Shown: positions 32,019-44,643 of the stretch, in pieces
Layout of the letters: every line of letters begins with the position of its first letter
Position numbering within the stretch: position 1 is the first letter of the stretch
Assembly (NCBI RefSeq): GCF_000746085.1
Contig: NZ_JQKO01000011.1
Coordinates: forward strand, 1 to 64,000
Length of the DNA: 64,000 bases
From: Methylocapsa aurea
GTDB lineage: Bacteria; Pseudomonadota; Alphaproteobacteria; Rhizobiales; Beijerinckiaceae
Direction: 5' to 3'
Program-made: the position numbers and the translations under genes
Notes under the pieces: model-generated
Databases searched by the model: none
What the model was told of the DNA's origin: nothing
What the model saw: the letters and a program-made list of their open reading frames with translations, nothing else

Positions 32019-32603
32019 ATGGACCGAGACCTGCGCATCGCCGTCATTGACAAGAACCCGCTGCGCGCGGCCATTCTTGAAGAGGGTCTGCGCGAGGCCG
32101 GGCATTCGGGCGTCGTGCGCATCGACGATACGGCTGATCTGCTGGATCGGATCCGCGTCATCGATCCCGACGTGATCCTGATCGATCTTGAAAGTCCGAG
32201 CCGCGACGTTCTCGAACAGATGTTCCAGGTCAGCCGCACCGTTGCGCGGCCGGTCGCGATGTTCATCGACCGCTCCGATGCGGCGATGATCGACGCGGCG
32301 GTTGATGCAGGGGTCTCGGCCTATATCGTCGACGGCCTGCGCAAGGATCGGGTCAAGCCGATCCTCGACATGACGATCAGCCGGTTCAACGCTTTCGCCC
32401 GGCTCAAGGACGAGTTGGAGCGGACGAAGTCGCAGCTCGAAGACCGGAAGGCGATCGACCGGGCCAAGATGCTGGTCATGCGCGCCAAAGCGATTTCCGA
32501 AGAGCAAGCCTATGCCCTCATGCGCAAAACGGCGATGAACGAAAACAAGAAGATTGCCGATATAGCGCGCTCCATCATTACCGCCGCGGAGCTCTTGCGA
32601 TGA
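32019..32603 (+). CDS. nasT: Nitrate-responsive ANTAR antitermination regulator NasT
   Basis: NasT binds leader RNA and prevents early termination of nitrate assimilation transcripts. The first 120 residues form a receiver-like domain (LRIAVIDKNPLRAAILEEGL, DVILIDLESPSRD), and the last 60 form the ANTAR helix bundle (RKAIDRAKMLVMRAKAISEE and MNENKKIADIARSII). The aspartate at the phosphoacceptor place is present but the acidic pair is reduced. Two starts are open: ATG at 32019 with GGAGAG, or TTG at 31998 also with GGAGA. Its stop overlaps nasS (ATGA). NasS holds NasT inactive when nitrate is absent (known for the family). Confidence 0.93.
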   Translation: MDRDLRIAVIDKNPLRAAILEEGLREAGHSGVVRIDDTADLLDRIRVIDPDVILIDLESPSRDVLEQMFQVSRTVARPVAMFIDRSDAAMIDAAVDAGVSAYIVDGLRKDRVKPILDMTISRFNAFARLKDELERTKSQLEDRKAIDRAKMLVMRAKAISEEQAYALMRKTAMNENKKIADIARSIITAAELLR

Positions 32604-33745
32604 CGATGAAGCTGCGCATCGGCTATGTGCCTCTGACCGACGCGGCGCTGCTTCACGTCGCCAAGGCGCAGGGTTTCGCGGCCGCGCGCGGGCTTGAGCT
32701 CGACCTCGTGCGCGAAACCTCCTGGGCCAATATCCGGGACAGGCTCGCGCTCGGCCATTTCGACGCCGCGCATATGCTGGCGCCGGCCGCCATTGCCTCG
32801 TCGATCGGCGTCGGACAGATGCAGACGCAGCTTGTGGCCCCGGTGGCGCTTGGGCTCAACGGCAATGCGATCACGGTTTCGCGGGCGCTTTTTGATTCCC
32901 TGCAGCGCAGCGCGGAAGGCGATCTGGCCGACCCCCGCGTCACGGCGAAGGCGCTGGCCGGGATCGCCCGGAAGCGCAAGGAAAAGGGAGAGGCGGCGCT
33001 GACGTTTGGCCATGTGTTCCCCTTTTCCAGTCACCACTATCAATTGCGGCTATGGATGCGGGCGGGCGGCTTAGACCCCGAAAATGACGTGCGGCTCATC
33101 GTGACGCCGCCGCCTTTCATGGTCGAAACGCTGCGCGAGGGCCATGTGGATGGATTTTGCGTCGGCGCGCCCTGGAATTCGCTGGCGGTGGCCGCCGGCG
33201 TCGGGACGATCCTCCATTCAGGGACCGCCATCGTGCGCAATTGCCCCGAGAAGGTTCTGGCGTTTCGGGCCGAATGGGTTTTGGAGCGTCCAGCCGAGGC
33301 CAGCGCGCTCGCCCACGCCATTGGCGAGGCATCGCAATGGGCGAGCGAGCCCTCCAACCGCACGGCCTTGGTGGTCCTGCTGGCCTCCGTCTCCGAGCCC
33401 GGCGTGAGCGCCGAGACAATCGACCAGATCCTTGAGAGCCAGCCTCCCGAACATCAGGCGCCGCCGCGCGTCTCGGCCGCCACGGCCACCGGCCTGCGGC
33501 TCGATCCGGCGGCGATCGCTGCGCATCGCTCCCATGCGCTTTGGCTTTTCGCCCAGATGGCGGCGGCCGGCCAAGTCGCCTATTCGCAGGTCCTGGCGGC
33601 GACAGCGGCCGCTGTCTATCAGCCGATTCTTGGTCCTGCGATCGCCGGCCCCATCGACGCGCCGCTTGTCTTCGATGGGCCGGAGTTTACGCCCGACGAT
33701 CTTCCTTCTTATCTGAAAGCAATGGGGATTGCGCCGCGCGGCTAG
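32600..33745 (+). CDS. nasS: Cytoplasmic nitrate/nitrite sensor NasS
   Basis: The 381-residue protein belongs to the NrtA/CmpA solute-binding fold but has no signal peptide (MTMKLRIGYVPLTDAALLHV), which marks the sensor NasS rather than a transport protein. Binding motifs shared with NrtA include the GYVPLTDAA start, FDAAHMLAPA and DGFCVGAPWNS. It traps NasT, and nitrate or nitrite frees NasT to act on leader RNA. Overlap with nasT by 4 bp makes them one translational unit. The transporter gene nrtA is a recognisable paralogue 400 bp further on. Confidence 0.93.
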   Translation: MTMKLRIGYVPLTDAALLHVAKAQGFAAARGLELDLVRETSWANIRDRLALGHFDAAHMLAPAAIASSIGVGQMQTQLVAPVALGLNGNAITVSRALFDSLQRSAEGDLADPRVTAKALAGIARKRKEKGEAALTFGHVFPFSSHHYQLRLWMRAGGLDPENDVRLIVTPPPFMVETLREGHVDGFCVGAPWNSLAVAAGVGTILHSGTAIVRNCPEKVLAFRAEWVLERPAEASALAHAIGEASQWASEPSNRTALVVLLASVSEPGVSAETIDQILESQPPEHQAPPRVSAATATGLRLDPAAIAAHRSHALWLFAQMAAAGQVAYSQVLAATAAAVYQPILGPAIAGPIDAPLVFDGPEFTPDDLPSYLKAMGIAPRG

Positions 33746-33872
33746 AGCATGATGCCGAAAAGTGGAAACCGGTTTTCGGCCGACATCATGCTCTAACTCT
33801 TTGATGAGAGGCGGATTTAAGACTTTGGACGAGATCGCGTTGCGATTCCGTCCAAAGTCATCGGGCTCTAGG
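33744..33872 (+). repeat. Dispersed ~125-bp repeat, copy 2
   Basis: Nearly identical, in inverted orientation, to 7914-8038. It opens with the palindrome at GAGCATGATGCC...CATCATGCTC and contains a second dyad around GACTTTGGAC. It immediately follows nasS and could contribute 3'-end structure to the nasTS mRNA. Confidence 0.85.
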
Positions 33873-34004
33873 CGCGTTCTGGCTGCACAACAAGCGCGCA
33901 GGTTGTTCAGCTAAGGGCAAAATGGCGCGAGGATATGCGGCTTGTCGCCGTGGGGCTGGGTGCTTTGCCTTTGCATTCCCACGCCAATACACAGCTTTCC
34001 CGGC

Positions 34005-34020
34005 TGGCATCCATCTTGCG
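34005..34020 (+). promoter_or_regulatory. Sigma-54 (RpoN) promoter of the nitrate assimilation operon
   Basis: TGGCATCCATCTTGCG has the invariant GG and GC of -24/-12 promoters with exactly 10 nt between them (consensus TGGCAC-N5-TTGC). Transcription would begin near 34031, about 126 nt before nrtA. Sigma-54 control of nitrate assimilation through NtrC is the common arrangement in proteobacteria. Confidence 0.75.
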
Positions 34021-34058
34021 TATAGGTAGCCACATAAGATTGCCTCGCGCAGTCTGTT

Positions 34059-34080
34059 TTGGGTCCAACGATGGGCCTAA
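34059..34080 (+). promoter_or_regulatory. ANTAR-type RNA hairpin (NasT target) in the nrtA leader
   Basis: TTGGGTCC and GGGCCTAA pair over 8 bp (two wobble pairs) around the hexaloop AACGAT, which has the A at loop position 1 and G at position 4 known to be read by ANTAR domains. A second stem, AGATTGC/GCAGTCT at 34037-34055, stands 3 nt upstream where the first hairpin of the pair is expected, but its loop is CTCGC, not a canonical hexaloop. The terminator follows 7 nt downstream. Confidence 0.7.
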
Positions 34081-34087
34081 ATCCAGC

Positions 34088-34142
34088 AACGCCGCTGACA
34101 AACCCTCGCTTAAACGGGGGTTCGCCAGCGGCGTTTTTTTTT
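34088..34142 (+). terminator. Leader intrinsic terminator (attenuator) before nrtA
   Basis: AACGCCGCTG pairs perfectly with CAGCGGCGTT around a loop, followed by a run of nine T from 34134. It ends 14 nt before the nrtA start codon, so it would silence the operon unless NasT acts. An inner CCCTCG...CGGGGG pairing may extend the stem. Confidence 0.88.
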
Positions 34143-34156
34143 GATGGAGCCCAGGC

Positions 34157-35470
34157 ATGAAGGCCAGAACCTCGACCGGCGCGACGAGTCTGACGCGTCG
34201 CACGCTTCTCACATCCGGGGCCAGCCTCGCCGGCGCGGCCGCATGGATGGCCGCCGCGCAGAGCGCATTCCCGGGCGGCGCTTTCGCGGAGGCGGCCGGA
34301 CCTGAGACGCCGAAGGTGGTGCTGGGCTATATCGCGCTGACCGACGCGGCGCCGCTGATCGTCGCCAAGGAGAAGGGCTTTCTTGATGAGGTCGGCCTGA
34401 CCGAAGCGTCGATCTCCAAGCAGGCGTCATGGGGCGCGACGCGCGACAATCTTGTTCTCGGCTCGGAGGCGAATGGCATCGATGGCGCGCATATCCTGTC
34501 GCCGATGCCCTATCTGATCTCGACCGGAAAGGTCACGCAGAACAACGTCCCCGTGCCGATGTATCTCCTGGCGCGGCTCAATTGCGATAGCCAGGGCATC
34601 TCGGTCGCCAATGAATATAAGGATACCAAGGTCGGCCTCGATTCCTCGCCGCTGCGGGCCGCTTTCGCCAAGAAAAAGGCCGAAGGCAAAGACGTCAAGA
34701 TCGCGATGACCTTCCCGGGCGGCACCCACGATCTGTGGATCCGCTATTGGCTCGCCGCTGGCGGCATTGATCCCGATAAGGACGTCTCGACCATCGTCGT
34801 GCCGCCGCCCCAGATGGTGGCGAACATGAAGATTGGCAACATGGACGCCTTCTGCGTCGGCGAGCCTTGGAACGAGCAGCTCGTCAACCAGGGGATTGGC
34901 TTTACCGCCTGCACGACCGGCGAGATCTGGCGCCGCCATCCCGAGAAGGCCCTAGGCATGCGCGCGGCTTGGGTCGACAAAAATCCGAAAGCCGCCAAGG
35001 CGCTCCTCATTGCCGTGATGAAGGCGCAGCAATGGTGCGACAAGCTCGAAAACAAAGAGGAAATGGCGACCATTCTCGGCAAGCGGCAATGGTTTAACGT
35101 GCCGGTCGCCGACGTGCTCGGCCGGTTGAAGGGTGACATCAACTACGGCAACGGCCGGTTTGCCAAGGGCACCGATCTCTACATGAAGTTTTGGGAAGAC
35201 GGCGCGTCCTATCCCTACAAGAGTCACGACGCATGGTTTGTCGTCGAGGACATCCGCTGGGGCAAGTTCGATCCCTCGACCGACGTCAAGGCGCTGGTCG
35301 AGAAGGTGAACCGCGAGGATCTGTGGCGCGAGGCCGCCAAGACGCTTGGCGCCGCGGACATTCCCGCGACGTCCTCGCGCGGCAAGGAGACCTTCTTCGA
35401 CGGCAAGGTCTTCGATCCCGCCGACCCGGGGGCCTATCTGAAGAGCCTCGCCATCAAGCGCATCGCCTGA
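34157..35470 (+). CDS. nrtA: Nitrate ABC transporter periplasmic binding protein
   Basis: The 437-residue binding protein has a Tat signal (SLTRRTLLTSGASLAGAAAW) and a CmpA/NrtA-type body: VVLGYIALTDAAPLIVAKEK, NGIDGAHILSPMPY, MTFPGGTHDLWIRYWLAAGG and DAFCVGEPWNEQ. It captures nitrate, possibly nitrite too, and hands it to NrtB. It is the first gene after the attenuator. Its fold is shared with NasS, which has kept ligand binding but lost export. Confidence 0.94.
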   Translation: MKARTSTGATSLTRRTLLTSGASLAGAAAWMAAAQSAFPGGAFAEAAGPETPKVVLGYIALTDAAPLIVAKEKGFLDEVGLTEASISKQASWGATRDNLVLGSEANGIDGAHILSPMPYLISTGKVTQNNVPVPMYLLARLNCDSQGISVANEYKDTKVGLDSSPLRAAFAKKKAEGKDVKIAMTFPGGTHDLWIRYWLAAGGIDPDKDVSTIVVPPPQMVANMKIGNMDAFCVGEPWNEQLVNQGIGFTACTTGEIWRRHPEKALGMRAAWVDKNPKAAKALLIAVMKAQQWCDKLENKEEMATILGKRQWFNVPVADVLGRLKGDINYGNGRFAKGTDLYMKFWEDGASYPYKSHDAWFVVEDIRWGKFDPSTDVKALVEKVNREDLWREAAKTLGAADIPATSSRGKETFFDGKVFDPADPGAYLKSLAIKRIA

Positions 35471-35511: not shown

Positions 35512-36411
35512 ATGTCCCTCACGGCATTGCGGCGGGAAGCGGGCGCCGCGCCAGATGGCGTCAAGCGCAAGTCGAAACAAGCGCGCTTCTCGTCCAACAA
35601 ACCATCGCTTTGGACCAGCACAATGTCGCTGTTCAATCGGCTCGCGCGCAATGTCGTTCCGCCGCTGATCATGCTCGCGCTGATCCTCATCGCCTGGCAG
35701 ATTCTCTGCGGCCGGCCGGGCGCCGCCTTGCCGGCACCGTCCGAGGTATGGACGCAAGCGGGCGATCTGATCAAGCATCCTTTCTTCGACAACGGCCCGC
35801 AAGATCTCGGCCTCGGCTGGCGCGTGCTGGTCTCCGTCCAGCGGGTGATGATCGGCTTCGGATTGGCGGCGATCGTCGGCGTTCTCTTGGGGACGTTGGT
35901 TGGCCAGTCGGTCTGGGCGATGCGCGGACTCGACCCGATCTTTCAAGTGCTGCGCACGGTGCCTCCGCTCGCCTGGCTGCCGCTCGCGCTCGCCGCCTTC
36001 CGCGACAGCAACCCGTCGGCGATCTTCGTCATTTTCATCACCTGCATCTGGCCGATCATCATCAACACGGCGGTCGGCATTCGCAACATCCCGCAGGACT
36101 ACCGCAATGTCGCGTTGGTGCTCCGCCTCAGCCCGCTCGAATTCTTCGCCAAGATCATGGTGCCGGCGGCCGCTCCCTATATTTTTACCGGGTTGCGGAT
36201 CGGCATTGGCCTCGCCTGGCTCGCGATCGTCGCGGCTGAGATGCTGACAGGGGGCGTCGGCATTGGGTTCTTCATTTGGGACGCCTGGAATTCCTCGCGC
36301 CTGCCCGACATCATCGTCGCGCTGGGCTACATCGGCCTCACCGGCTTCGCGCTGGACCGCCTCGTTGGCGCGGTCGGCTCAATCGTCACCCGCGGCGCGC
36401 CCGCGAATTAA
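35512..36411 (+). CDS. nrtB: Nitrate ABC transporter permease
   Basis: A 299-residue inner-membrane permease with about six TM helices and the ABC-permease EAA-type loop (LRLSPLEFFAKIMVPAAAPYI). TVPPLAWLPLALAAFRDSNP is characteristic of the nitrate/taurine group. The ATG at 35512 follows CGGAGAC. It lies 41 bp after nrtA and 12 bp before nrtD. Confidence 0.93.
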   Translation: MSLTALRREAGAAPDGVKRKSKQARFSSNKPSLWTSTMSLFNRLARNVVPPLIMLALILIAWQILCGRPGAALPAPSEVWTQAGDLIKHPFFDNGPQDLGLGWRVLVSVQRVMIGFGLAAIVGVLLGTLVGQSVWAMRGLDPIFQVLRTVPPLAWLPLALAAFRDSNPSAIFVIFITCIWPIIINTAVGIRNIPQDYRNVALVLRLSPLEFFAKIMVPAAAPYIFTGLRIGIGLAWLAIVAAEMLTGGVGIGFFIWDAWNSSRLPDIIVALGYIGLTGFALDRLVGAVGSIVTRGAPAN

Positions 36412-36423
36412 GGAGGAGCCATC

Positions 36424-37221
36424 ATGGCCCGCCATTATCTCAAGATCGATCATGTGGCGAAGAGCTTTTCGCGCGGCGGCGCGACGTCGGAGGTCTTGAC
36501 CGACATCGACCTCGCGATCGAGCGCGGCGAGTTCATCTCCATCATCGGCCATTCCGGCTGCGGCAAGTCCACTCTCCTCAATCTCGTCGCCGGCCTCACC
36601 CGCGTGACCACTGGGGCGATCCTGCTCGAGGACCGCGAAGTCAACAGCCCCGGACCCGACCGCGCGATCGTGTTTCAGAACCACAGCCTGCTCCCCTGGC
36701 TCACTGTGTATGGCAATGTGAGGCTCGCGGTCGACAAGGTTTTCGCCGGGGTCAAGTCGAGGGCCGAACGGCATCAATGGACCATGCATAATCTCGATCT
36801 CGTGCAAATGGCCCATGCCAAGGACAAGCAGCCGGCCGAAATCTCCGGCGGCATGAAGCAGCGCGTCGGCATCGCCCGCGCTCTCGCCATGGAGCCCAAG
36901 GTGCTGCTTCTCGACGAGCCTTTCGGCGCGCTCGACGCTCTGACGAGAGCCCATCTGCAGGACAGCGTCATGCGCATCCACGCCGCGCTTGGCAACACGG
37001 CGATCATGATCACCCATGACGTCGATGAGGCTGTGCTGCTGTCCGACCGCATCGTCATGATGACCAATGGCCCTTCGGCGCGCATTGGCGAAGTGCTGGA
37101 TGTGCCGCTGGAGCGGCCGCGTGAGCGGGTCGAGCTTGCCGCCGATCCGGCCTATATCCGCGCCAGGGAGACTGTCTTGAAATTCCTCTACGAGCGCCAC
37201 CGGGTTGTCGAAGCGGCGTAG
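36424..37221 (+). CDS. nrtD: Nitrate ABC transporter ATP-binding protein
   Basis: The 265-residue ATPase has Walker A (GHSGCGKST), Q-loop (VFQNHSLLPWLTV), the signature ISGGMKQRVGIARAL, Walker B (VLLLDEPFGALDALTR) and the H-loop (MITHDVDEAVLLSDR). No regulatory NrtC-like extension is fused, so nitrate control must come from NasST. AGGAGG lies just before the ATG. Confidence 0.94.
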   Translation: MARHYLKIDHVAKSFSRGGATSEVLTDIDLAIERGEFISIIGHSGCGKSTLLNLVAGLTRVTTGAILLEDREVNSPGPDRAIVFQNHSLLPWLTVYGNVRLAVDKVFAGVKSRAERHQWTMHNLDLVQMAHAKDKQPAEISGGMKQRVGIARALAMEPKVLLLDEPFGALDALTRAHLQDSVMRIHAALGNTAIMITHDVDEAVLLSDRIVMMTNGPSARIGEVLDVPLERPRERVELAADPAYIRARETVLKFLYERHRVVEAA

Positions 37222-37350: not shown

Positions 37351-38568
37351 ATGAGCGAAACTCTGATCGTTGTCGGCAACGGCATGGCCGCGACGCGCTT
37401 TGTCGATGAACTGACGCAGCGCGCGCCTAGCCGCTACAGCGTCGTCGTCATTGGCGACGAGCCGCGCTTGTCTTACAACAGGGTTCTGCTGTCGTCGCTG
37501 CTCGCCGACGAAATCGACGAATCGGCGATCGAGCTGAAGGGGCAAGACTGGTGGAGCGCGCGCGGCGCGACGACGCTCACGGGGCAGGCGGTCACATCCA
37601 TCGACCGTGAGGGCGGGAGGCTGACGCTCGCCAACGGCGCGCGCCTTTCCTATTCGAAGCTTGTGCTGGCGACCGGTTCGGCTCCAATCCGTTTGCCAAA
37701 GCCCGGCATGAACTTACCCGGCGTCCTGACCTTCCGCGACCTCGCCGATGTCGAGGCGATGCGCGCCATGATGGCGCCCGGCGCGCGCGCCGCGGTGATC
37801 GGCGGCGGCCTTCTCGGCATCGAGGCGGCCTATGGCCTGGCCAAGGCGGGCGTGAAAGTCACGCTCATTCATCTCATGGATCAATTGATGGAGCGCCAGC
37901 TCGACGCGAGGGCGGGCGCCTTGCTGAAGCGCGCCATCGAAGCGAAGGGCGTCGATGTGGTGCTCGGCGCTGATGCGGCGGCGGTGGTTGGAGAGGAGCG
38001 AGCGCGGGCTGTGGCTCTCTCCGACGGTCGTCTCATTGATGCGGATTTCGTGGTCTGCGCGGTCGGCATCCGGCCGCGGGCGCAGCTCGCCAAGGACGCC
38101 GGGCTCGCGGTCAATCGCGGGATCGTCGTCGACGACGGGCTCGCCTCCAGCGACCCCGATATTTTCGCGCTTGGCGAATGCGCCGAACACCGAGGCAATG
38201 TCTATGGATTGGTCGAGCCGGCCTATGAGCAGGCGAAAATCCTGGCCCATCGCCTCGCCGGCGATCTTGCCGCGAGCTATTTGGGCTCGACCCTTGCAAC
38301 CAACCTCAAGGTCTCCGGCGTCAACGTCTTTTCGGCTGGGCAATTCATCGAAAATGAGTCGAACGATTGTCTTATGCTCGAGGATGAGGGAGCTGGAATT
38401 TACAAGAAGCTGGTTCTGCGGGAAGGCCGGCTTGCCGGGGCGGTGCTGTTTGGCGATGCGGCGGACGGGCTCTGGTATCTCGATCTGATCCGTTCCGGCG
38501 CCGATGTTTCCCACATGCGCGATCTCCTGGCGTTCGGGCCGGCGCTCGCCCTCGCGCAAGCGGCGTGA
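37351..38568 (+). CDS. FAD/NAD(P)H-dependent oxidoreductase, NirB N-terminal-like
   Basis: The protein of 405 residues matches the first, flavoprotein third of NADH-nitrite reductase NirB/NasB: FAD motif LIVVGNGMAATRFVDEL, YNRVLLSSLLADE, LVLATGSAPIRLP, NAD motif AVIGGGLLGIEAAYGLAKAG, the FALGECAEHRG FAD motif and a C-terminal domain. It has no BFD or siroheme domain. It probably feeds NAD(P)H electrons to the nitrate or nitrite reductase encoded downstream. The start at MSETLIVVGNG has GAGGG upstream and fits relatives; the frame is open from 37237. Confidence 0.88.
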   Translation: MSETLIVVGNGMAATRFVDELTQRAPSRYSVVVIGDEPRLSYNRVLLSSLLADEIDESAIELKGQDWWSARGATTLTGQAVTSIDREGGRLTLANGARLSYSKLVLATGSAPIRLPKPGMNLPGVLTFRDLADVEAMRAMMAPGARAAVIGGGLLGIEAAYGLAKAGVKVTLIHLMDQLMERQLDARAGALLKRAIEAKGVDVVLGADAAAVVGEERARAVALSDGRLIDADFVVCAVGIRPRAQLAKDAGLAVNRGIVVDDGLASSDPDIFALGECAEHRGNVYGLVEPAYEQAKILAHRLAGDLAASYLGSTLATNLKVSGVNVFSAGQFIENESNDCLMLEDEGAGIYKKLVLREGRLAGAVLFGDAADGLWYLDLIRSGADVSHMRDLLAFGPALALAQAA

Positions 38569-38576
38569 GGCGCCCC

Positions 38577-40361
38577 ATGAACGGCGATTTCACCCCCGAT
38601 CAGAAGCGCTATCTCGAAGGCTTCGTTTTCGGCCTCGACGCCGCGCGCAAGAAACAAGGCTTATCGGCGCTTGGCCTTGCAGGCTCCGAGGCCAAGCCGA
38701 TCGGGCCCGATGCGCCGCATTTTCTCGCCCAGGATGAGGCGACGAAGGCCGGCAAGAAGCTCGCCGACCAGGAAAAATGGAAACGCGAGGAACATCCCTT
38801 CGACGCCTATCCGAGACTGCGGGATCAGGCTGCGCGAAGTGAGTTTCCAAAGCCGGCCGACAATTTCCGGTGGCGCTATCATGGGCTTTTCTATGTGGCG
38901 CCGGCGCAAGACAGCTACATGTGCCGGCTGCGCATCCCCAATGGCGTGTTGTCGCATTGGCAGTTTGCGGGAGTAGCCGATCTCGCGGAGCGGTTCGGCG
39001 GCGGATATGCGCATGCGACAACGCGCGCCAATCTGCAAATCCGGGAGATCGGCGCGAAGGATTCGATCTGCATTGTCGAGGGATTGCAGGATCTCGGCCT
39101 GACTTCGCGCGGCGCCGGCGCCGACAATATCCGCAACGTGACTGGCGACGCCACCGCCGGCATCGGCCACGCCGAATTGATCGACACCCGCCCGTATGCG
39201 CGCGAATGGCATTTTCATATCCTCAACCAGCGCGCGCTCACAGGCCTGCCGCGCAAGTTCAATGTGGCCTTCGACGGCGGCGGGGCGATCCCGACGCTTG
39301 AAGACACCAATGACATCGGCTTCCAGGCTGTGGAGGTCGCGGCGGGCGCCGGCGTCGAGCCAGGCGTCTGGTTCAAGCTGATCCTCGGCGGCATCACCGG
39401 CCACAAGGATCTGGCGCGCGAGACCGGCGTCATCGTGCGGCCCGGCGAGGCCACCGATGTCGCGGATGCGATCGTGCGTCAGTTCATTGCCGAGGGGGAC
39501 CGCGCCAATCGCAACAAGGCGCGGCTGAAATATGTGCTCGACCGCTATGCGAGCGACGGACGCGGCCTTGCCGGCTTTCTCGCCAAAGTGGAGGAGCGCC
39601 TCGGCCGCCCGCTAACCCGCGTCGATGCATCCTTTATCCTGCCGCGCCCGGCGCAAGATCGACACGCGCATATCGGCGCGCATCCGCAGAGGCAGCCGGG
39701 TCTTTTCTACCTTGGCGTGGTCCTTCCGGTCGGGCGGATGAGCTGCGCGCAGATGCGCGCGCTGGCGGCCATTGCGCGCGAATTCGGCGATGGCGATCTG
39801 CGCCTTACCGTCTGGCAGAATCTGTTGATCTCCGGCGTCTCCGAACGAGATTTGGACGCAGCCAAGGCGGCGATTGAAGCCGCCGGCCTCGGTTGGCGGG
39901 CCTCCTCGATTCGCGCGGGGCTCGTCGCCTGCACCGGCTCGCAAGGGTGCAAGTTTTCCGCCGCCGCGACGAAGGCCGACGCCGAAGAGATTGCCGCCTG
40001 GTGCGAATCGCGGATCGCGCTCGACCAACCGGTCAACATCCATCTCACCGGCTGCCACCATTCCTGTGCGCAGCACTACATCGGCGACATCGGACTCATC
40101 GGCGCCCGCGTCGCGGTGAACGAGGATGGCGATACGGTGGACGGATATCACATCGTTGTCGGAGGCGGCCATGGCGGCTCTGGCGCGATCGGGCGCGAGA
40201 TCTTGCGCGATGTGAAGGCCAAGGATGCGCCCAATGCGGTCCTGCGCCTGCTCGCGGCCTATCAGGCGCAGCGCTCCAGCGCGGCGGAAAATTTTCAAGA
40301 GTTCGCCGCGCGGCGCGAGGTTGCGGCGCTCAAGGCTTTCGCGGAGGGGCTTAACGCATGA
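38577..40361 (+). CDS. nirA: Siroheme/4Fe-4S nitrite reductase, NirA type
   Basis: The enzyme reduces nitrite to ammonium with six electrons. It has 594 residues with the duplicated NIR_SIR half-domains (IPNGVLSHWQFAGVADLAER; RLTVWQNLLISGV). The cluster cysteines bridging to siroheme are CTGSQGC (C-X5-C) and CHHSC (C-X3-C). An N-terminal extension of about 75 residues precedes the first ferredoxin-like half. Its donor is ferredoxin or a flavoprotein, and the genes on both sides encode such reductases. The ATG at 38577 follows GAGG; a GTG at 38565 overlaps the upstream stop. It overlaps the next gene by 4 bp (ATGA). Confidence 0.93.
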   Translation: MNGDFTPDQKRYLEGFVFGLDAARKKQGLSALGLAGSEAKPIGPDAPHFLAQDEATKAGKKLADQEKWKREEHPFDAYPRLRDQAARSEFPKPADNFRWRYHGLFYVAPAQDSYMCRLRIPNGVLSHWQFAGVADLAERFGGGYAHATTRANLQIREIGAKDSICIVEGLQDLGLTSRGAGADNIRNVTGDATAGIGHAELIDTRPYAREWHFHILNQRALTGLPRKFNVAFDGGGAIPTLEDTNDIGFQAVEVAAGAGVEPGVWFKLILGGITGHKDLARETGVIVRPGEATDVADAIVRQFIAEGDRANRNKARLKYVLDRYASDGRGLAGFLAKVEERLGRPLTRVDASFILPRPAQDRHAHIGAHPQRQPGLFYLGVVLPVGRMSCAQMRALAAIAREFGDGDLRLTVWQNLLISGVSERDLDAAKAAIEAAGLGWRASSIRAGLVACTGSQGCKFSAAATKADAEEIAAWCESRIALDQPVNIHLTGCHHSCAQHYIGDIGLIGARVAVNEDGDTVDGYHIVVGGGHGGSGAIGREILRDVKAKDAPNAVLRLLAAYQAQRSSAAENFQEFAARREVAALKAFAEGLNA

Positions 40362-41974
40362 ACGCCATTTCACGCTCTTCCGCGATCGCGCCGATCATTC
40401 CGGAGACCGCGCCTTTCAGCCCCGAGCAACGCGGCTGGCTGAACGGATTTTTTGCGGGGCTCACCGCGCTTGACGGAGCGCCGGCTACGGCCGTCCCCGC
40501 CAATGAGAGCGAGCCGCCTCTCAGTGCGCCAGACGATGACGGGGCGCCTTGGCATGATCAGACGCTGCCGTTGCCCGAACGGATGAAGCTCGCCGCGGAC
40601 CGGCCGATGCGGCGGCGCATGATGGCGGCGATGGCGCAACAGGACTGCGGCCAATGCGGCTATAATTGCGAGGATTACGCGAACGCGATCGCAGCGCAGG
40701 CCGAGGACCGTCTGAACCTTTGTGCGCCGGGGGCGAAGGAAACCGCCCGGATGTTGAAAGGCCTCGTCGAGGAAATGGGCGGCGGCGCGATCGATCCCGA
40801 TGAAGCCAAGCTCAAAGCCGAGACCAAGGCGATGGCGCAATCGCGGGACGCCGACCAGCGTCCCGGCCGCTCGCGAAACGCCCCGGCGCAAGCGATCTTC
40901 GCTTCGCGAAAAAGGCTCAATCGGGAAGGCTCCGAAAAGGCGACCTACCATGTTGAGTTCGATATTTCGGGCGCGGGGCTCGATTACGAAGTGGGCGACA
41001 GTTTTGGAGTTTTTCCGCGCAACGATCCCGGGCTCGTTGATCGCGTGATCGCAGCGATCGGCGCGCCCGAGGACTTCCCGGTCGCGGATAAGACTCTCCG
41101 CCGCGTGTTGATGGAGGATGTTTCGCTGGGCGCCGCGCCCGACATGCTGTTCTCGCTCATCTCCTACATCACTGGCGGCCCGCGTCGGGCGAAGGCGAAG
41201 GCCTTGGCGAAAGGCGAAGATCCGGACGGCGACGCCGCGACGCTCGACGTGCTCGCGGCGCTGGAAAAATTCGCCGGGCTGCGGCCCGATCCCGAGGCCT
41301 TCGTCGAAGCGCTAGAGCCGCTGCAGCCGCGCCTTTATTCGATTGCCTCCTCGCTGAAGGCCAACCCCGGCAGGGTGTCGCTTTGCGTCGATCAAGTGCG
41401 TTACTCGATCGCTGGGCGCGAGCGCCTTGGCGTCGCCTCGACCTTTCTCGCCGCGGGCTTGCAGCCGGGCGCGCCGGTGAAGGCCTATGTCCAGCGCGCC
41501 CATGCCTTTGCGCCGCCGGCCGATGGAAAAACCCCGATCATCATGGTCGGCCCCGGCACCGGCGTCGCTCCCTTCCGGGCCTTTTTGCAAGAACGCGTGG
41601 CGACCAAGGCGCAAGGACCGGCCTGGCTGTTCTTCGGCCATCAGCGGCGCGACGCAGACTATTTCTACGAGGACGAGATGTCCGGCTTCCTGGCGGCAGG
41701 GACGCTCGCCAAAATCTCCCTCGCCTGGTCGCGCGATGGCGAGCGGAAAGTCTATGTGCAGGACAAGATGCGCGAGGAGGCGTCCGAGCTCTGGTCGTGG
41801 CTGTCGCAAGGCGCGCACTTCTACGTGTGCGGCGACGCCAAGCGCATGGCGGCCGATGTCGAAGCGGCGCTTCTTACGATCTGCGCCGAATATGGCGGCA
41901 TGAACGCCGCCGCCGCCAAGGCCTTCCTGAAGGAGCTGCGCGCAGGCGGCCGCTATCAGACGGACGTCTATTGA
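40358..41974 (+). CDS. Iron-sulfur/FAD reductase: RnfB-type FeS domain fused to CysJ-like reductase
   Basis: The 538-residue protein has an N-terminal 4Fe-4S module of the RnfB FeS type (DCGQCGYNCEDYANAIA ... LNLCAPG) near residues 88-130, then a CysJ/P450-reductase-like FAD domain (LNREGSEKATYHVEFDISGA, RLYSIASS) and a ferredoxin-NADP reductase NAD(P) domain (IIMVGPGTGVAPFRAFL; FYVCGDAKRMA). The flavodoxin (FMN) domain of CysJ is absent, and the FeS module seems to take its place. It likely passes NAD(P)H electrons to NirA or NasA. It overlaps both neighbours, so it is tightly coupled with them. Confidence 0.88.
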   Translation: MNAISRSSAIAPIIPETAPFSPEQRGWLNGFFAGLTALDGAPATAVPANESEPPLSAPDDDGAPWHDQTLPLPERMKLAADRPMRRRMMAAMAQQDCGQCGYNCEDYANAIAAQAEDRLNLCAPGAKETARMLKGLVEEMGGGAIDPDEAKLKAETKAMAQSRDADQRPGRSRNAPAQAIFASRKRLNREGSEKATYHVEFDISGAGLDYEVGDSFGVFPRNDPGLVDRVIAAIGAPEDFPVADKTLRRVLMEDVSLGAAPDMLFSLISYITGGPRRAKAKALAKGEDPDGDAATLDVLAALEKFAGLRPDPEAFVEALEPLQPRLYSIASSLKANPGRVSLCVDQVRYSIAGRERLGVASTFLAAGLQPGAPVKAYVQRAHAFAPPADGKTPIIMVGPGTGVAPFRAFLQERVATKAQGPAWLFFGHQRRDADYFYEDEMSGFLAAGTLAKISLAWSRDGERKVYVQDKMREEASELWSWLSQGAHFYVCGDAKRMAADVEAALLTICAEYGGMNAAAAKAFLKELRAGGRYQTDVY

Positions 41975-44643
41975 TGAACGTTCACGCGCCGGCGCCGGGC
42001 GTGCGCACGACTTGCCCATATTGCGGGGTTGGCTGCGGCGTCGTCGCGACGCCCGATGGGCTTGGCGGCGCGGCAATCGCTGGCGATGCAAGCCATCCAG
42101 CCAATGCCGGCCGGCTTTGCTCCAAGGGCTCCGCGCTCGGCGAGACGCTAGGGCTTGAAACGCGGCTTCTGCATCCGATGATCGAGGGCAAGCGGGCGAG
42201 CTGGGCCGCGGCCCTCGATCATGTCGCGGATGGATTTAAGCGCGTGATCGACCGGCATGGTCCGGACGCTGTGGCGTTCTATCTTTCCGGCCAATTGCTG
42301 ACCGAGGATTATTACGTCGCCAACAAGCTGATGAAAGGCTTCATCGGCTCGGCCAATGTCGACACCAATTCGCGGCTCTGCATGGCCTCGTCCGTCGCCG
42401 GCCATCGCCTCGCCTTCGGGTCGGATACGGTGCCGGGATGTTATGAAGACCTCGACGAGGCCGATCTCCTCGTGCTCGTAGGATCGAACGCGGCGTGGTG
42501 CCACCCTGTGCTCTACCAGCGCATGGTTCGGGCGCGCGAGAAGCGCGGGGCGCGCATCGTCAGCATTGACGTGCGGGGGACCGCGACGACGCAGACCGCC
42601 GATCTCGCGCTGACGATCCGGCCGGGCATGGACGGCGTTTTGTTCTGTGGCCTTCTCGTCCATCTCGCCGACAGCCAAGGCGTCGACCGCGCCTTTGTCG
42701 GCGCCCATACCGAGAATTTCGACGCGGCCTTGAGCCAGGCGCGCCTCATCGCGCCTGATATCGCGACCGCCGCCGGAAAATGCGGCGTCGATACAGGCGC
42801 CATCGCGGAGTTTTTCGATCTTTGGTTGCGGATCGAACGGGTCGTGACGCTCTATAGCCAGGGCGTCAATCAATCCTGGCAGGGCGTCGACAAGGTTGCG
42901 GCCATCGTCAACTGCCATCTTGCGTCTGGCCGCATCGGCCAGATTGGCGCCGGACCCTTTTCGCTGACCGGGCAACCGAACGCCATGGGCGGGCGCGAAG
43001 TCGGCGGCCTCGCCAATCAGCTTGCCGCCCATATGGGATTTTCACCTGGAGACATCAACCGCGTCGGGCGCTTTTGGGGCGCGCCGCGCATGGCGCGGAC
43101 GGAGGGACTTAAAGCCGTCCCCATGTTCGAAGCCATTGCGCGCGGCGACATCAAGGCCTTGTGGGTCATCGGCACCAATCCGGCGGTAAGCCTGCCGCGC
43201 GCCGACGATGCGCGGGCAGCCCTTTCCCGGCTCGATCTCCTGGTTGTCTCGGACAATGTGCGCTCGACCGATACGATCGAAGCTGGCGCGCATGTGTTGC
43301 TGCCGGCGGCGGCCTGGGGAGAGAAGGATGGCACGGTCACCAATTCCGAGCGGCGGATCTCGCGTCAACGGGCTTTCCTGCCCCTGGCTGGCGAAGCGAA
43401 GCCGGACTGGTGGGCGGCATCCGAAGTCGCCAAGCGGATGGGCTTTGGCGAAGCGTTCGATTATTCCGGTCCGGCGGATATATTTCGCGAACATGCCGCG
43501 CTTTCCGGCTTTGAAAACGACGGCGCCCGAAGCTTCGATATCGGCGCTCTCGCCGAACTGAGCGACGCTGCTTACGATGCGCTGGCGCCGCTGCAATGGC
43601 CCGCCCCCTTGGGCGCCCCACACGGGCGGGCGCGGCTCTTCGGCGATGGGCGCTTCTTCACGCCATTTCGCCGCGCCCGCTTCGCTGCGATCGAGGAGCC
43701 CGCGCTCGCTGTCGCGCCAACCGTCGAATTTCCATTTCTTTTGAACACCGGGCGGGTGCGCGACCAATGGCATACGATGACGCGAACCGGCCTCTCGCCT
43801 CGCCTCGCCGGCCATGCGCCCGATCCATTTGTCGAGGTGAACCCTGCTGATGCGCGCCGGCTCGATCTGGTTGACGGCGGGTTCGCGCGGGTCGCGACCG
43901 CATATGGAAGCGCCGTCCTGCGCGTCGCCGTCACCGAGGCGCAGGTTCCCGGCCGCATCTTCGCGCCAATTCACTGGAGCGATGCGACAGCAGGGCCGGC
44001 GCGCATCGGCGCGCTGGTTCATGGATTCACCGATTCCGTGTCGGGGCAGCCGGATTCGAAGGCCGTTCCTGCGAGGCTGGCGTCGGTTTCCTATGCGGCG
44101 CATGGCTTCATTCTTGCGCGCAACACACTGCGGCTTCCCGGCGATTCGGCATGGGCGTGGAGCGCGATCGAGGGCGGCTATGCCGCGCGGATCGCGACGA
44201 ATGAATCCTACGCGGCTTTGGTCGAGGCGCTCGGCGAAAATTTGCGTCCCGCCGAACAGGCCAGATACAACGATCCAAGGCGCGGGACTTTTCGCGCGGC
44301 GTGGATCGTCGCAGGACGTCTGGAGACGATTTTGTTTCTTGGGCCGGAGGGCGAGATCCCGCCATGGAGCGGTCTTAGCGAATCCTGGGGATTGGAGCGG
44401 CTCGACGCCGCCGCGCGCCGCTTTCTCCTCGCCGGCAGGAGCGCCTCCGCCAATTTCGACGCCAGCCCGACGATCTGCGCCTGCTTCGGTGTCAAATCGC
44501 GCGCCATCCTGATGGCGATCGCAGATGGCGCAAATTCGAGCGATGCGATCGGGGCGCGGCTGAAGGCCGGGACGAATTGCGGGTCCTGTCTCCCTGAGGT
44601 GAAAAGGATGATCGCCATGGCCGCGACGCCCGTGGAGGTTTGA
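41974..44643 (+). CDS. nasA: Assimilatory nitrate reductase catalytic subunit
   Basis: The 889-residue cytoplasmic molybdoenzyme reduces nitrate to nitrite. An N-terminal 4Fe-4S site (CPYCGVGCGV ... LCSKG) is followed by the Mo-bisMGD domains (TNSRLCMASSVAGHRLAFGS holds the molybdenum-ligand cysteine region; GPFSLTGQPNAMGGREVGG) and a molydopterin-dinucleotide domain near residue 590. The C-terminus carries a BFD-like 2Fe-2S module (ICACFGVKSRAI ... GTNCGSCLPEVKR), the probable entry for electrons from a flavoprotein partner. The ATG overlaps the upstream stop. The frame is open further upstream but that part is out-of-frame shadow of the reductase gene. Confidence 0.95.
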   Translation: MNVHAPAPGVRTTCPYCGVGCGVVATPDGLGGAAIAGDASHPANAGRLCSKGSALGETLGLETRLLHPMIEGKRASWAAALDHVADGFKRVIDRHGPDAVAFYLSGQLLTEDYYVANKLMKGFIGSANVDTNSRLCMASSVAGHRLAFGSDTVPGCYEDLDEADLLVLVGSNAAWCHPVLYQRMVRAREKRGARIVSIDVRGTATTQTADLALTIRPGMDGVLFCGLLVHLADSQGVDRAFVGAHTENFDAALSQARLIAPDIATAAGKCGVDTGAIAEFFDLWLRIERVVTLYSQGVNQSWQGVDKVAAIVNCHLASGRIGQIGAGPFSLTGQPNAMGGREVGGLANQLAAHMGFSPGDINRVGRFWGAPRMARTEGLKAVPMFEAIARGDIKALWVIGTNPAVSLPRADDARAALSRLDLLVVSDNVRSTDTIEAGAHVLLPAAAWGEKDGTVTNSERRISRQRAFLPLAGEAKPDWWAASEVAKRMGFGEAFDYSGPADIFREHAALSGFENDGARSFDIGALAELSDAAYDALAPLQWPAPLGAPHGRARLFGDGRFFTPFRRARFAAIEEPALAVAPTVEFPFLLNTGRVRDQWHTMTRTGLSPRLAGHAPDPFVEVNPADARRLDLVDGGFARVATAYGSAVLRVAVTEAQVPGRIFAPIHWSDATAGPARIGALVHGFTDSVSGQPDSKAVPARLASVSYAAHGFILARNTLRLPGDSAWAWSAIEGGYAARIATNESYAALVEALGENLRPAEQARYNDPRRGTFRAAWIVAGRLETILFLGPEGEIPPWSGLSESWGLERLDAAARRFLLAGRSASANFDASPTICACFGVKSRAILMAIADGANSSDAIGARLKAGTNCGSCLPEVKRMIAMAATPVEV

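Follow-up and report, generated by a model that had tools for sequence, protein, structure and literature searches.

We analyzed a 64,000-nucleotide stretch of the Methylocapsa aurea genome (the window), in which a short leader separates the regulatory genes nasT and nasS from a presumed nitrate assimilation operon beginning with nrtA. The features that concern us are as follows.

32019-32603, forward strand: nasT, encoding a protein with response-regulator-like and ANTAR domains (Pfam PF03861, E 4.7e-17; PF00072, E 4.1e-7)
32600-33745, forward strand: nasS, encoding an NMT1_2 substrate-binding-like protein (PF13379, E 9.9e-71)
33884-33900, forward strand: dyad TGCAC-N7-GCGCA, a putative NtrC-type enhancer that matches at 9 of 10 dyad positions and lies 121 bp from the -24 box on its upstream side
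34005-34020, forward strand: -24/-12 (sigma-54-type) promoter element TGGCATCCATCTTGCG, with a predicted start near 34031
34037-34055, forward strand: H1, a 7-bp stem with loop CTCGC, which is not an ANTAR hexaloop
34058-34081, forward strand: P1, a 9-bp stem with hexaloop AACGAT at 34067-34072 (A1, G4)
34084-34097, forward strand: P2, a predicted antiterminator hairpin, CAGC-AACGCC-GCTG, of 4 bp with its hexaloop at 34088-34093 (A1, G4)
34088-34135, forward strand: intrinsic terminator, stem 34088-34097 / 34126-34135 and inner stem 34101-34108 / 34115-34122
34134-34142, forward strand: U tract of the terminator, the first bases of which can also pair
34157-35470, forward strand: nrtA, the presumed first regulated gene, encoding a presumed nitrate-binding protein (PF13379, E 1.1e-104)
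35512-37221, forward strand: nitrate ABC transporter permease and ATPase (TIGR01183 and TIGR01184, both above cut-off)
37351-44643, forward strand: presumed assimilatory nitrite/nitrate reductase genes, coding for an FAD oxidoreductase, a NirA-family protein, a CysJ-like flavoprotein and a molybdopterin oxidoreductase

The nasT product is the only ANTAR match encoded by the genome at an E-value of 0.001, and its relatives by sequence in the PDB include 6wsh (Response regulator), 1s8n (putative antiterminator) and 4akk (nitrate regulatory protein). Gene order and family membership lead us to presume that nasS encodes the nitrate sensor, and nrtA is named, also presumptively, from its neighbours and family. 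Both nasT and nasS lie directly upstream of the leader, with the ANTAR domain encoded about 1.5 kb upstream of the P1-P2 motif. Within the reductase region there are matches above cut-off to NF007126 (NirA family) and NF004859, and the NirA-family protein also exceeds the cut-off for TIGR02435 (CobG). The FAD protein matches TIGR02374 (NirB) under the cut-off, and the best matches of the molybdopterin protein, to TIGR01591 (formate dehydrogenase alpha) and NF047855 (NasC), are both under theirs.

The promoter element has GG at 34006-34007 and GC at 34018-34019 with 10 nt between them, the GG-N10-GC arrangement of a sigma-54 promoter; the predicted start near 34031 lies about 12 nt past the GC. 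The match in M. aurea scores 6 of 9 and is by itself weak evidence, because at least that score is reached by 108 of 2000 shuffles of the 400 bases upstream; the support lies in its conservation. A TGGC-type element scoring at least 6 of the 9 scored positions is present in 78 of 80 related leaders as compared with 51 of 1600 shuffles, and one scoring at least 8 in 68 of the 80 as compared with 3 of 1600 shuffles. The M. aurea element is weaker than most of these (75 of the 80 relatives score at least 7), and a number of the related leaders have GA or GT replacing the GC of the -12 element. Further upstream, the putative dyad at 33884-33900 was scored against what we take to be the NtrC consensus. 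NtrC-like dyads are enriched among the leaders: a score of at least 8 of 10 is reached in 56 of 82, where shuffles predict 10.5, and a score of at least 9 in 19 of 82, where they predict 0.45; this count leaves out L086, in which the script did not find the promoter element, as well as L002 and L004.

A script scan of positions 33951-34160 for hairpins with an A1/G4 hexaloop and a stem of at least 4 bp returned exactly two, with loops at 34067 and 34088, and both loops are closed by a C:G pair (C34066-G34073 and C34087-G34094). The two loops are 21 nt apart, and the linker between the hairpins is 2 nt long with P1 paired over its full nine positions, or 5 nt long with the outer three pairs open and a 6-bp core left. 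The loop and 3' arm of P2, AACGCCGCTG, are also the 5' arm of the terminator (34088-34097), which pairs with CAGCGGCGTT at 34126-34135; the run of nine Ts that follows extends to 34142, which leaves 14 nt to the nrtA ATG at 34157. When the terminator was kept and the 57 nt upstream of it shuffled, a P1-like and a P2-like hairpin arose together in just 3 of 20000 shuffles, the P2-like part alone in 1772 and the P1-like part alone in 19.

The original prediction, also made from the sequence, had placed nasT and nasS immediately upstream of a leader with a correctly spaced -24/-12 element, a stem bearing the hexaloop AACGAT with A1 and G4, and a strong intrinsic terminator ending 14 nt before nrtA, and all of these are borne out, the AACGAT hairpin being P1. 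Its statement that the ANTAR hairpin does not overlap the terminator stem is not, as P2 occupies the terminator 5' arm. It had also chosen the stem at 34037-34055, with loop CTCGC, as the partner of the AACGAT hairpin. That stem and loop exist, but the partnership does not hold, P2 being the better partner. Both oddities of that account vanish once P2 is recognized within the terminator, because the sharing of the P2 loop and 3' arm with the terminator 5' arm makes the twin hairpin canonical and provides the overlap. An Rfam search of the leader gave no ANTAR-type match at the gathering threshold or at E-values up to 5, and weak matches to miRNA and sRNA families, all under their gathering scores, were rejected. 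A program scan for terminators listed H1 and left out the true terminator, probably because the interrupted stem exceeds the loop limit of the program.

Computed folds show P2 and the terminator stem to be mutually exclusive. The leader transcript folds far better than its shuffles (z -5.45, with 0 of 200 shuffles doing as well), and folding of growing transcripts from the predicted start, done at selected lengths, gives P2 a pairing probability of 0.99 at 34097 and of 0.98-1.00 up to 34128, followed by a drop, with the terminator displacing it, to 0.22 at 34129 and 0.01 at 34130. Folded to 34142, the terminator state has an energy of -52.6 kcal/mol as compared with -41.8 kcal/mol for the state in which P2 is enforced, and at full length, where the terminator prevails, P2 does not appear in the minimum-energy fold. 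The P2-enforced state retains an 8-bp inner hairpin set apart from the U tract, as in the nasF model in the available text of its report (PMC3369936).

For comparison with relatives we assembled 80 nrtA loci from named genomes, which with the M. aurea leader make a set of 81; 61 of the 80 loci, in the extent retrieved, contain a NasT-like match, and the others may carry NasT elsewhere. A P2 within the terminator 5' arm together with a P1 no more than 60 nt upstream was found in 63 of the 81 leaders and in 0 of 810 shuffles, although the latter also destroy the terminator and are too easy a control, the one that keeps the terminator being that with 3 of 20000 described above. The script matched P1 plus P2 in none of the other 18 leaders, and the L006 row of the scan, which lies outside the 63, is a misassignment. 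A scored terminator is present in 71 of the 81 leaders, and in 68 of these 71 its 5' arm is able to form a hexaloop. A1 and G4 occur together in 66 of these 68 terminator-arm hexaloops even though the letters were not required, and loop positions 2 and 3 vary. Within the genus, a close NrtA was found in five of the 15 genomes searched, that of M. aurea included, and all five leaders carry P1, P2 and the terminator stem, with an interrupted U tract in L085.

Covariation was scored in an alignment of 25 leaders (A2). It started from 22 script-found pairs, from which L027, L030, L034 and L069 were dropped for wrong pairings and L011 for identity with L008 over the stretch; L002, L010, L012 and L035 were added by reading, the same-genus leaders L083-L086 were included as well, and L015, with the same P1 and P2 as L010, was omitted. 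In this alignment 95.3% of cells are paired, a value biased upward since most of the leaders were picked by script for A1, G4 and a minimum stem (which also makes A1/G4 invariance a matter of construction), and in 24 cells both partners have changed; none of 500 shuffles reaches either value. Changes on both sides occur at six of the ten pairs, a number equalled or exceeded by 9 of 500 shuffles, and are distributed over four of six pairs in P1 and two of four in P2. Versions slid along the alignment score far lower. Changes in the P2 loop are also matched in the terminator 3' arm, in five combinations: AACGCC/GGCGTT, AAAGCC/GGCTTT, AATGCC/GGCATT, AGCGCC/GGCGCT and AACGCT/AGCGTT. Conservation of the hexaloop and covariation in relatives, which had been proposed as a check, are both found, with P1 and P2 in 63 of 81 leaders and covariation in both helices.

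A covariance model of P1-P2 was also searched against whole genomes. The model represents the short-linker form, its seed includes the M. aurea leader, the search filters were strict, and overlaps were counted from tables. In the M. aurea genome the leader scores 50.4 bits and is the sole strong match; the next scores 22.2 bits at an E-value of 0.15, and the weaker matches range from 0.15 to 0.79. Among 199 genomes of the order the model matches 39 at E-values up to 0.01, and an ANTAR protein is encoded in 36 of these 39, among them all 22 with matches at E < 0.001, as compared with 90 of the 199 overall. The three motif-bearing genomes without an ANTAR protein (G081, G086 and G144) have weak matches, with E-values of 0.00499 to 0.00972. 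In 32 of the 39 the motif lies no more than 2 kb downstream of an ANTAR gene on the same strand, as in M. aurea. The model has no match in 54 of the 90 ANTAR-bearing genomes, among them all four others of the same family (G022, G116, G207 and G229). In one genome, G160, a single ANTAR gene is followed downstream by two P1-P2 motifs (C1:784532 and 789196), about 4.7 kb from each other.

These features can be set beside those of characterized ANTAR systems, in each case as given in the available parts of the published reports. The eut, amiE and nasF leaders contain paired A1/G4 hexaloop hairpins in which P2 overlaps the 5' part of the terminator (PMC3369931, PMC3369936, PMC7496416), and a C:G loop-closing pair is preferred in SELEX (PMC7496416). 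The M. aurea leader resembles those of Enterococcus faecalis eut, Pseudomonas aeruginosa amiE and Klebsiella nasF in its two A1/G4 hexaloops, their C:G closing pairs and the overlap of P2 with the terminator. It differs from them in carrying the additional non-hexaloop stem H1 upstream and in its linker of 2-5 nt, at or below the short end of the range; eut linkers are 5-12 nt, and one of 3 or 14 nt drastically lowers EutV induction in vivo (PMC3369931). In Paracoccus denitrificans nitrate dissociates NasS-NasT and NasT binds the nasA leader (PMC3795266), hairpin mutants of which are reported (PMC5424462), and in Bradyrhizobium diazoefficiens NasT acts on the nosR leader (PMC6759348). M. aurea shares with P. 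denitrificans the position of nasT-nasS upstream of nitrate assimilation genes, and with both species the presence of leader hairpins, which NasT is reported to bind in the known systems; unlike either, it would have the gene for a nitrate ABC transporter's binding protein as first target, and its presumed nitrite reductase is of the NirA family. Judged from its sequence, the M. aurea leader is a further case of the published dual-hexaloop ANTAR antiterminator. The suggestion that antitermination here may differ from the Klebsiella model is not supported, P1 at 34058-34081 and P2 at 34084-34097 having the eut/amiE/nasF architecture, and the comparison lends good support to the broader proposal of a sigma-54 promoter combined with a nitrate operon under NasT/ANTAR antitermination.

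We regard it as very likely that this is a sigma-54 leader with a terminator that acts by default, and that NasT, by holding P1 and P2, allows read-through into the nrtA operon. The promoter, with NtrC as its probable activator when nitrogen is limiting, would give rise to a short leader transcript, which by default would end at the intrinsic terminator. From the published work on NasT, NasR and EutV we infer that nitrate or nitrite would free NasT from NasS, and that free NasT would bind the hexaloops of P1 and P2. Because P2 uses the terminator's own 5' arm, holding it would leave just the inner hairpin, separate from the U tract, and by the same analogy polymerase would then read on through nrtA and the remaining operon genes. 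P2 is predicted to form early and to be displaced by the terminator near 34129, so it is P2 that NasT would hold for read-through. On this reading an apparent exception to the ANTAR model disappears, and one more nitrate operon has exact, testable P2 bases.

Two other explanations of the leader appear very improbable to us. One, that of the original prediction, is that H1 forms the ANTAR pair with the AACGAT hairpin in a switch working without terminator overlap. A stem is indeed predicted at H1, close to the putative start, and its position is that of a hexaloop in Rhizobiaceae-type and Xanthobacter leaders. As an ANTAR partner of P1 it was nevertheless rejected: it has no A1/G4 hexaloop, its loop being CTCGC here and GCTCCCTA in the same-genus leaders L083 and L084, whose counterparts of H1 also differ in their arm letters, and it is missing from two of the five same-genus leaders, L085 and L086, in which no hairpin is listed at this position, P1 directly follows the promoter, and P1 and P2 are kept. 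The comparison gives no sign of a need for H1 in the predicted switch, and the existence of a P2 that overlaps the terminator also argues against pairing H1 with P1. The other explanation, to which we give just as little credence, is that the terminator serves only transcripts from nasS, the operon having its own promoter downstream of the terminator or being constitutive. The terminator is strong and the upstream start near 34031 is a prediction, both consistent with such an arrangement. However, the -24/-12 element recurs upstream of nrtA in nearly all related leaders, the gap from the U tract to the ATG is just 14 nt, and the conservation of P1 and P2 would be without reason.

How NasT would engage the two hairpins is a matter of refining the read-through switch. 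NasT may take one hexaloop at a time, landing on P1 and moving to P2, and not bridge the two as a dimer. In the available text of the EutV report, both the crystal structure and the binding measurements favour hexaloops being contacted singly and in succession (PMC8934654), whereas that on NasR describes the two-hairpin RNA as bound about tenfold better than P2 alone, at about 1 as compared with 12 uM (PMC7496416). We consider successive contact possible but less likely than not.

In 47 of the 80 loci (those of Rhizobium, Agrobacterium and relatives, and Brucella cytisi; among L014-L081, for example L018:2827-2890) the hexaloops are 46-51 nt apart. In these Rhizobiaceae-type leaders the P1 hexaloop lies 35-37 nt past the start of the promoter element, and most contain a middle hairpin between the two. 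The 45 distinct sequences among the 47 were aligned (A3) after being picked for P1, A1/G4 and the P2 stem, so that invariance of the P2 stem is uninformative; the middle helix was not required, and it has changes on both sides at six of seven pairs with 90.4% of cells paired. For the long-spaced structure as a whole, none of 500 shuffles does as well as the real sequences, and the predicted folds of L022 and some others depart from it. The spacing contrasts with the behaviour of EutV, for which the available text reports that antitermination in vitro is abolished when 20 nt are added to the linker (PMC8934654). In the available parts of the open-licence literature we found neither long or bridged P1-P2 spacing nor three ANTAR hairpins.

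Six Xanthobacter/Ancylobacter leaders (L008, L009, L010, L012, L015 and L035) each carry three tandem A1/G4 hexaloop hairpins. In L010 and L012 the terminator stem is followed by no clear U tract. In L033, L042 and L064 the hexaloops are 33-39 nt apart upstream of nrtA, with no other hairpin listed between them by the script.

We tentatively suggest, with slightly less than even confidence, that Hyphomicrobiales nrtA leaders are variants of a modular ANTAR switch with three slots, in which P2 has a constant place within the terminator and the partner hexaloop is either adjacent, as in M. aurea, or one covarying helix away, as in the 47 long-spaced loci, some Xanthobacter/Ancylobacter leaders having hexaloops in all slots. 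If so, the inserted helix would stand in for the short linker, and H1 would be the slot-1 helix minus its hexaloop. The long-spaced leaders offer a natural test of whether the requirement is for chain length or for distance in space or time.

The gap between nasS and the promoter also contains, at 33747-33858, a dispersed composite repeat consisting of two palindromes about 75 nt apart. The first, which starts with GCATGATGCCGAAAAGTGG, has 63 matches in the genome with no more than three mismatches and 0 in a reversed control; the second has 73 matches over both strands, with some places counted twice, and 0 in the control.
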